From an uncultured Treponema sp. (lineage in GTDB: Bacteria; Spirochaetota; Spirochaetia; Treponematales; Treponemataceae), in assembly GCA_934691925.1 (NCBI GenBank), contig CAKUTI010000038.1, positions 1 through 13,932 on the forward strand: a stretch of 13,932 nucleotides of DNA, given 5' to 3'. Position 1 is the first letter of the stretch, and every line of letters begins with the position of its first letter. The notes beneath the pieces are model-generated. The model was given only the letters and a program-made list of their open reading frames with translations, did not search any database and was not told the origin of the DNA. The translations under genes and the position numbers were made by a program. Shown one piece after another: positions 95 to 802 of this stretch.

Positions 95-121
95 ATGCTA
101 CCCCCCCCCGAAAAAAGTCAA
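95..121 (-). promoter_or_regulatory. Promoter with a G9 tract in the spacer (candidate phase-variable promoter)
   Basis: On the minus strand TTGACT (121-116) is followed by a 15-nt spacer and TAGCAT (100-95). The spacer is T5, C, then nine G (109-101, read as C9 on the plus strand). TTGACT matches the sigma-70 -35 consensus at 5 of 6 positions and TAGCAT matches the -10 at 4 of 6. The 15-nt spacer is 2 nt short of the optimum, so a change of one or two G would be expected to move promoter strength. The ATG of the exported protein lies 28 nt downstream of the -10. The hexamers are seen directly; promoter activity and phase variation are inferred. Confidence 0.5.
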
Positions 122-241: not shown

Positions 242-802
242 ATGAAATATCTTGTAATTTCCGACATTCACGGAAGCGCGTTAAGCCTTGAAACCGCGCT
301 CAAAACTTTTGAAAAGGAATGTGATTTAATCGTTCTTTGCGGCGACTATCTGAATCACGGACCGAGAAATCCGCTTCCAGACGGCTGGGACACAAAAAAA
401 ACTGCCGCGCTCTTAAATGAAAAAAAACAGAAAATCGTCTGCGTGCGCGGAAACTGCGACTCGGAAGTTGACCAAATGATGCTCACTTTTCCATGCCTCA
501 ACGCCTACACTTCAATTTTCACAGACAACGAGCGTCGCATTTTCGTACACCATGGGCATTTGTACACGCATGAAGAGCTTTCCCAGCTTCTTCCGCCAGA
601 AACTCTTGTGATTTCAGGCCACACACACGTAACTTTAATGGAAGAAGACAGCGGACTTTTCTATTTCAACCCAGGCTCAATCTCGCTTCCAAAATGCGAT
701 GATGGAAAAACATGCGGAATCGTTGAATCTAAAGCAGACGGAAAAATCTCCGTTCAGCTTTATTCAATTGACGGAAAAAAAATCCGGGAAAAATCATTCT
801 AA
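242..802 (+). CDS. yfcE: YfcE-family metallophosphodiesterase
   Basis: A cytoplasmic calcineurin-like phosphoesterase of the YfcE/MJ0936 family; E. coli YfcE is a Mn-dependent phosphodiesterase whose natural substrate is unknown. The 186 residues match the family's usual length of about 184. Metal-ligand motifs appear in order: SDIHGS (D8, H10), GDYLNHGP (D35), GNCDSE (N71), HHGH (103-106), SGHTHV (H127, H129) and NPGS (143-146). The ATG at 242 is chosen because GGAG at 232-235 lies 6 nt upstream and the protein then opens MKYLVISDIH like its relatives; an in-frame GTG at 197 lacks a comparable site. It is the only plus-strand gene here, convergent with the alarmone synthetase gene, with which it shares a terminator. 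The family call is firm; the substrate is unknown. Confidence 0.93.
   Translation: MKYLVISDIHGSALSLETALKTFEKECDLIVLCGDYLNHGPRNPLPDGWDTKKTAALLNEKKQKIVCVRGNCDSEVDQMMLTFPCLNAYTSIFTDNERRIFVHHGHLYTHEELSQLLPPETLVISGHTHVTLMEEDSGLFYFNPGSISLPKCDDGKTCGIVESKADGKISVQLYSIDGKKIREKSF

Follow-up and report, generated by a model that had tools for sequence, protein, structure and literature searches.

The 13,932 nucleotides (nt) analysed here, called the window below, are positions 1 to 13,932 of contig CAKUTI010000038.1 from the assembly GCA_934691925.1 of an uncultured Treponema sp. Near one end, on the minus strand, the window carries a promoter-like cassette with a run of nine Gs in its spacer, upstream of a gene for a predicted exported protein. 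The cassette (positions 95-121) consists of a -35-like hexamer, TTGACT (121-116), the non-G part of the spacer, TTTTTC (115-110), the G9 tract, which is the predicted site of slippage (109-101; C9 on the plus strand), and a -10-like hexamer, TAGCAT (100-95), which directly abuts the tract. Letters and coordinates match the preliminary description of this DNA, which had placed G9 exactly between the two hexamers, and the spacer is 15 nt long (115-101), as given there. Between TAGCAT and the start codon lie 28 nt, including the Shine-Dalgarno sequence AAAGGAG; Shine-Dalgarno and ATG together span 80-64, with the ATG at 66-64. The first 22 codons of the gene (66-1) encode MNLKKIGANVTAGILLVIFCAS, a Lys-rich start followed by a hydrophobic stretch with an 11-residue mean hydropathy of 2.82, and the gene then runs off the end of the window. 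The good Shine-Dalgarno sequence and signal-peptide-like N-terminus claimed earlier are both present. Divergently oriented, and outside the proposed switch, is the gene for a YfcE-like metallophosphoesterase (242-802, plus strand; Pfam Metallophos_2, E 3.5e-23).

The C9 of the plus strand is the only G/C run of at least 6 nt in the window, followed by two C5 runs, while the longest G run on the plus strand is G4; the statement that this is the longest G/C run in the window holds. None of 300 dinucleotide-preserving shuffles contained a G or C run of at least 9 nt, and none contained the cassette.

We consider the G9 run between TTGACT and TAGCAT, upstream of a predicted exported-protein gene, to mark a likely phase-variable promoter. 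Slippage during replication would add Gs to the run or remove them, shifting the spacer by one base per step and varying the spacing around the ~17-nt optimum of sigma-70-type promoters, and cells of a single clone would come to make differing amounts of the predicted surface protein. With G9 the spacer measures 15 nt, for which weak expression is predicted, so that the window may have captured a weak state. Because the run abuts the -10 hexamer, the bases just upstream of it would remain G at all tract lengths; spacing alone would therefore change with tract length, and the constant Gs beside the -10 hexamer may be functionally relevant. This interpretation implies that TTGACT and TAGCAT would be used as a promoter, that the tract probably slips in the population from which the window came, and that the predicted product would reach the cell surface.

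The same architecture recurs in relatives. We searched 196 genomes of the genus of Treponema berlinense, partly metagenome assemblies, with a strict pattern that includes the window site (TTGACN{6,11}G8TANNNT), and found 189 sites in 73 genomes, compared with none for the reversed pattern. Scrambling the -35 element from TTGAC to GTCAT left a single match in the 196 genomes, i.e., TTGAC is needed for the enrichment. A loose pattern (TTGACN{3,12}G7N{0,9}TANNNT) returned 377 match rows in 105 of the 196 genomes, with some sites counted in more than one row owing to overlapping alternative -10s, and its reversed version returned 18 rows in 14 genomes. In a phylum-wide sample of 296 genomes, which partly overlaps the genus sample, the strict pattern matched 106 sites in 42 genomes and its control none, and samples from two outgroup phyla (those of L079, Entomohabitans, and L054, Clostridium) had matches in 6/200 and 1/199 genomes, respectively. 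With the reversed, scrambled and other-phylum controls near zero, a quirk of base composition is ruled out. Across ten genomes, most of them selected for being rich in the cassette, 63 of the 477 G-runs of at least 8 nt lie inside a strict cassette, against ~0.07 expected from base composition. The highest numbers of strict sites per genome were 19 (G165), 11 (G150) and 10 (G029). Of the named species, T. berlinense has one strict site and T. zioleckii two; T. berlinense carries TTGACAAATTC-G9-A-TACGAT 53 nt upstream of a lipoprotein-like gene. Among the sites seen, the closest look-alike of the window site is that of genome G462, TTGACTTTTTTC-G9-TATTAT, which has the identical six non-G spacer bases and is followed, after 44 nt, by a lipoprotein-like gene; the genes around the G462 site are unlike those of the window. 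The cassettes of G450 and G427 also end in TAGCAT.

To describe the related sites, 139 were collected (39 loci from loose-pattern scans and 100 fetched from listed places), a set that favours rich genomes, includes paralogs and sister species, and represents non-independent draws. Their tracts are G7 at 3 sites, G8 at 28, G9 at 67, G10 at 29 and G11 or more at 12, where the patterns admit only tracts of at least 7 or at least 8 and shorter lengths fall outside the counts. The run abuts the -10 hexamer in 32 of the 39 loose-pattern loci when the nearest TANNNT is taken; most of the other 100 were picked by a pattern demanding this arrangement. Spacers range from 11 to 22 nt and are mostly 14-19 nt long. 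In 125 distinct abutting cassette strings, captured spacers of 17 nt (16 strings) were rarer than those of 15 nt (24), 16 nt (29) or 18 nt (30), although 17 nt is the usual optimum.

An open reading frame (ORF) follows at 133 of the 139 sites, at a median distance of 42 nt, and 124 of these 133 begin within 110 nt of the -10 hexamer. Applying our own heuristic for export and lipoproteins (charge, hydrophobic stretch and lipobox), we classified 110/133 downstream ORFs as exported-looking, compared with 39 of 150 control genes taken from 37 yfcE loci, and 82/133 as lipoprotein-like, compared with 12/150 controls. A Pfam scan of 109 of 124 downstream proteins yielded 62 families; among the 25 of these that were listed, the commonest was OMP_b-brl with four members, followed by DUF6273, DUF2715 and fn3 with three each, and a common product family is ruled out. 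As the downstream products are this diverse, the cassette is associated with export and not with a single gene family.

A group of lipoprotein genes at the G150 loci L164, L168, L169 and L170, and also at G029 and G090 loci, shares a signal peptide, M[RK]KFAKISAVLAAM..., and the cassette flanks TTGACAAATCC, while the mature part and the number of Gs differ. In this set it looks as if cassette and signal peptide had spread as a unit.

Tract length also differs between orthologs. Of 12 full-length ortholog pairs with at least 80% protein identity, some of which share a member, 7 have tracts of unequal length and 6 have unequal spacers. In L165/L195, G9 versus G10 is the sole internal indel across ~200 nt. 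L095 and L097 have G13 and G9, along with other indels, and in L166/L182 the difference falls at the C/G border and the spacing is the same. The paralogs L213 and L214 of one genome carry G14 and G11, and L126 and L127, located on two contigs of one assembly, G8 and G9 within flanks that are 94% identical. Homopolymer lengths in assemblies may be one base off. These differences agree with slippage. A high rate of slippage is not proven by them, because the tract is equal in the remaining 5/12 pairs and leader length also varies in several.

Altogether, the recurrence of the architecture in relatives but hardly in controls, the preference for exported genes, and the tract differences between orthologs strongly support the promoter switch proposed in the preliminary description. 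Besides the equal tracts and variable leaders just given, several observations weigh against it. TAGCAT matches the -10 consensus at 4/6 positions. The strict cassette is absent in 123 of the 196 genomes of the genus; no ORF was found at 6/139 sites, and 23/133 downstream ORFs lack an exported look. The window site was captured at one length, G9, and all length comparisons are between loci of relatives. The strand preference is not absolute either: with a C-run in place of the G-run, the loose pattern matched 24/196 genomes, compared with 105 for the G-run, and a strict strand rule was dropped.

Among the competing explanations, a small chance remains with the possibility that the tract lies in a transcribed leader or beside a regulator site, of a transcript whose start would be further upstream, and acts through translation or regulator binding instead of spacing. 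A weak promoter-like site does exist upstream on the minus strand (TTGATA-16-TATTCT, 212-185). The promoter scan that found it accepts spacers of 16-18 nt only, which is why the window cassette with its 15 nt is missing from the output, and its two candidates compare with a mean of 1.0 in shuffled sequence, i.e., the count is near chance. Precedents for such a mode of action come from Treponema pallidum, where, according to the accessible part of PMC7864442, the poly-G of tprL overlaps the -10 region and does not act through spacing, a further point against the spacer mechanism, and a CRP homolog binds the tprE, G and J promoters. In the relatives, however, the G-run goes together with TTGAC on its upstream side and TANNNT on its downstream side, a constraint that neither a leader nor a regulator site would impose.

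Marginally less probable still is a real promoter whose tract is stable in practice, so that a fixed G-rich spacer tunes promoter strength without switching. The five ortholog pairs with equal tracts fit this idea, whereas the seven differing pairs, one of them with G13 against G9, and the G14 and G11 paralogs within one genome do not; moreover, 76% of 17 analysed poly-G tracts in T. pallidum were clearly variable, as stated in the accessible part of PMC7864442. The idea that the run arose by chance or through misassembly, between hexamers that are themselves fortuitous, could draw on the occasional off-by-one homopolymer in assemblies, but the 300 shuffles without run or cassette and the presence of the cassette in 73/196 related genomes, with controls near zero, make a chance origin very unlikely.

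The proposed spacer switch may extend beyond single genes. We lean, with some reserve, towards the view that treponemes of the T. berlinense genus possess a surface switchboard, in which a standard cassette, its G8-G10 run abutting the -10 hexamer, in front of many unrelated lipoprotein genes would give each cell a random lipoprotein coat. If true, this would amount to a promoter phasome spanning multiple loci; the named members of the group encountered in this analysis are gut and rumen species.

Other homopolymers were observed as well. In G093, G132, G066 and others a mirror architecture, TTGACATAC-C-run-AT...TATAAT, is recurrent in a few genomes, with a C8-C10 run near the -35 element in place of a G-run abutting the -10. 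Beside the yfcE gene of another treponeme, a G10 (L012:3357-3366) lies in the N-terminal coding region of a divergent lipoprotein-like gene, whose captured frame hits a stop at codon 29, which suggests translational rather than promoter switching. A C10 near a gene start (L035:3673-3682) and a G9 in a repeat-protein-like stretch (L020:1279-1287) both appear to be coding and are possible frame switches.

Beyond yfcE, the window contains one gene with a RelA/SpoT domain, one with an ankyrin match below threshold, a synthase of the LeuA family, a member of the PTPS family and a cluster of chemotaxis genes. In one scan, the best identity of the window YfcE to Treponema sequences was 71%; the named species matched include T. 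ruminis, T. berlinense and T. zioleckii, and the matching Treponema records come mostly from rumen and gut samples. For the LeuA-family gene, the best DNA identity across 200 scanned genomes of the genus was 78% (G089), with 77% for T. ruminis (G002). The window therefore probably derives from a species close to these treponemes that the scanned genomes do not represent. From 105 yfcE relatives 80 were kept, and 40 loci were read, each over at most 320 nt on the upstream side of yfcE and less at contig ends; none of these 40 carried the window cassette upstream of yfcE. A tblastn search with the 22 residues against the fetched loci gave chance-level matches only (best E 0.32), and the identity of the exported gene was not recovered. 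Viral contigs scanned for the window cassette, with tract length allowed to vary, gave no match.

Homopolymeric tracts in prokaryotes have been treated in general terms (PMC2831843, in its accessible part), and the spacer-length mechanism is already known. Its repeated use, with up to 19 strict sites per genome in the T. berlinense genus, looks undescribed: among the matches listed in a literature search on Treponema, poly-G and phase variation, which mostly did not cover subscription papers, none concerned promoters of this kind in treponemes of the gut or rumen. T. pallidum is described as not open to genetic alteration in the accessible part of PMC7864442. The relatives that carry the cassette include isolated named species (T. 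berlinense and T. zioleckii) and others with at least 10 strict sites. If their tracts slip as expected, they would offer a route to test how spacer slippage diversifies the spirochete surface outside T. pallidum.

Comparable switches are known from several bacteria. In Mycoplasma hyorhinis, several vlp lipoprotein genes each have a homopolymer in their own promoter spacer, and this system differs from the treponeme cassette in its poly-A, its clustered gene family and its phylum. The remaining comparisons draw on PMC7864442, again in its accessible part. In porA of Neisseria meningitidis, a poly-G lies between -10 and -35 and spacing below 17 nt lowers transcription (PMC7864442); unlike the window site, it precedes a porin gene and belongs to a different phylum. 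The T. pallidum genes tprL and tprE/G/J resemble the window site in having variable poly-G in the promoter regions of surface-protein genes (PMC7864442), with the difference that the window run is flanked by hexamers on both sides. A promoter of the tprL type, in which length changes without a change in spacing, does not describe the window site, where the run lies wholly between the putative promoter hexamers and a change in length would alter the spacing. For tp0126 of T. pallidum, an OmpW homolog, both length variation and its effect have been demonstrated, while the window site is known from its sequence; a poly-G of about nine lies between -35 and -10, and transcription is best at 17 nt (PMC7864442), so that the comparison with T. 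pallidum made in the preliminary description is apt. As in porA and tp0126, the homopolymer at the window site occupies the spacer that separates a -35-like from a -10-like hexamer upstream of a gene. Like tp0126, the site belongs to a treponeme, and its product is predicted to be exported. The sites of the relatives differ in turn from tp0126, which is one outer-membrane barrel gene, in that they precede mostly lipoprotein-like genes and occur many times per genome.
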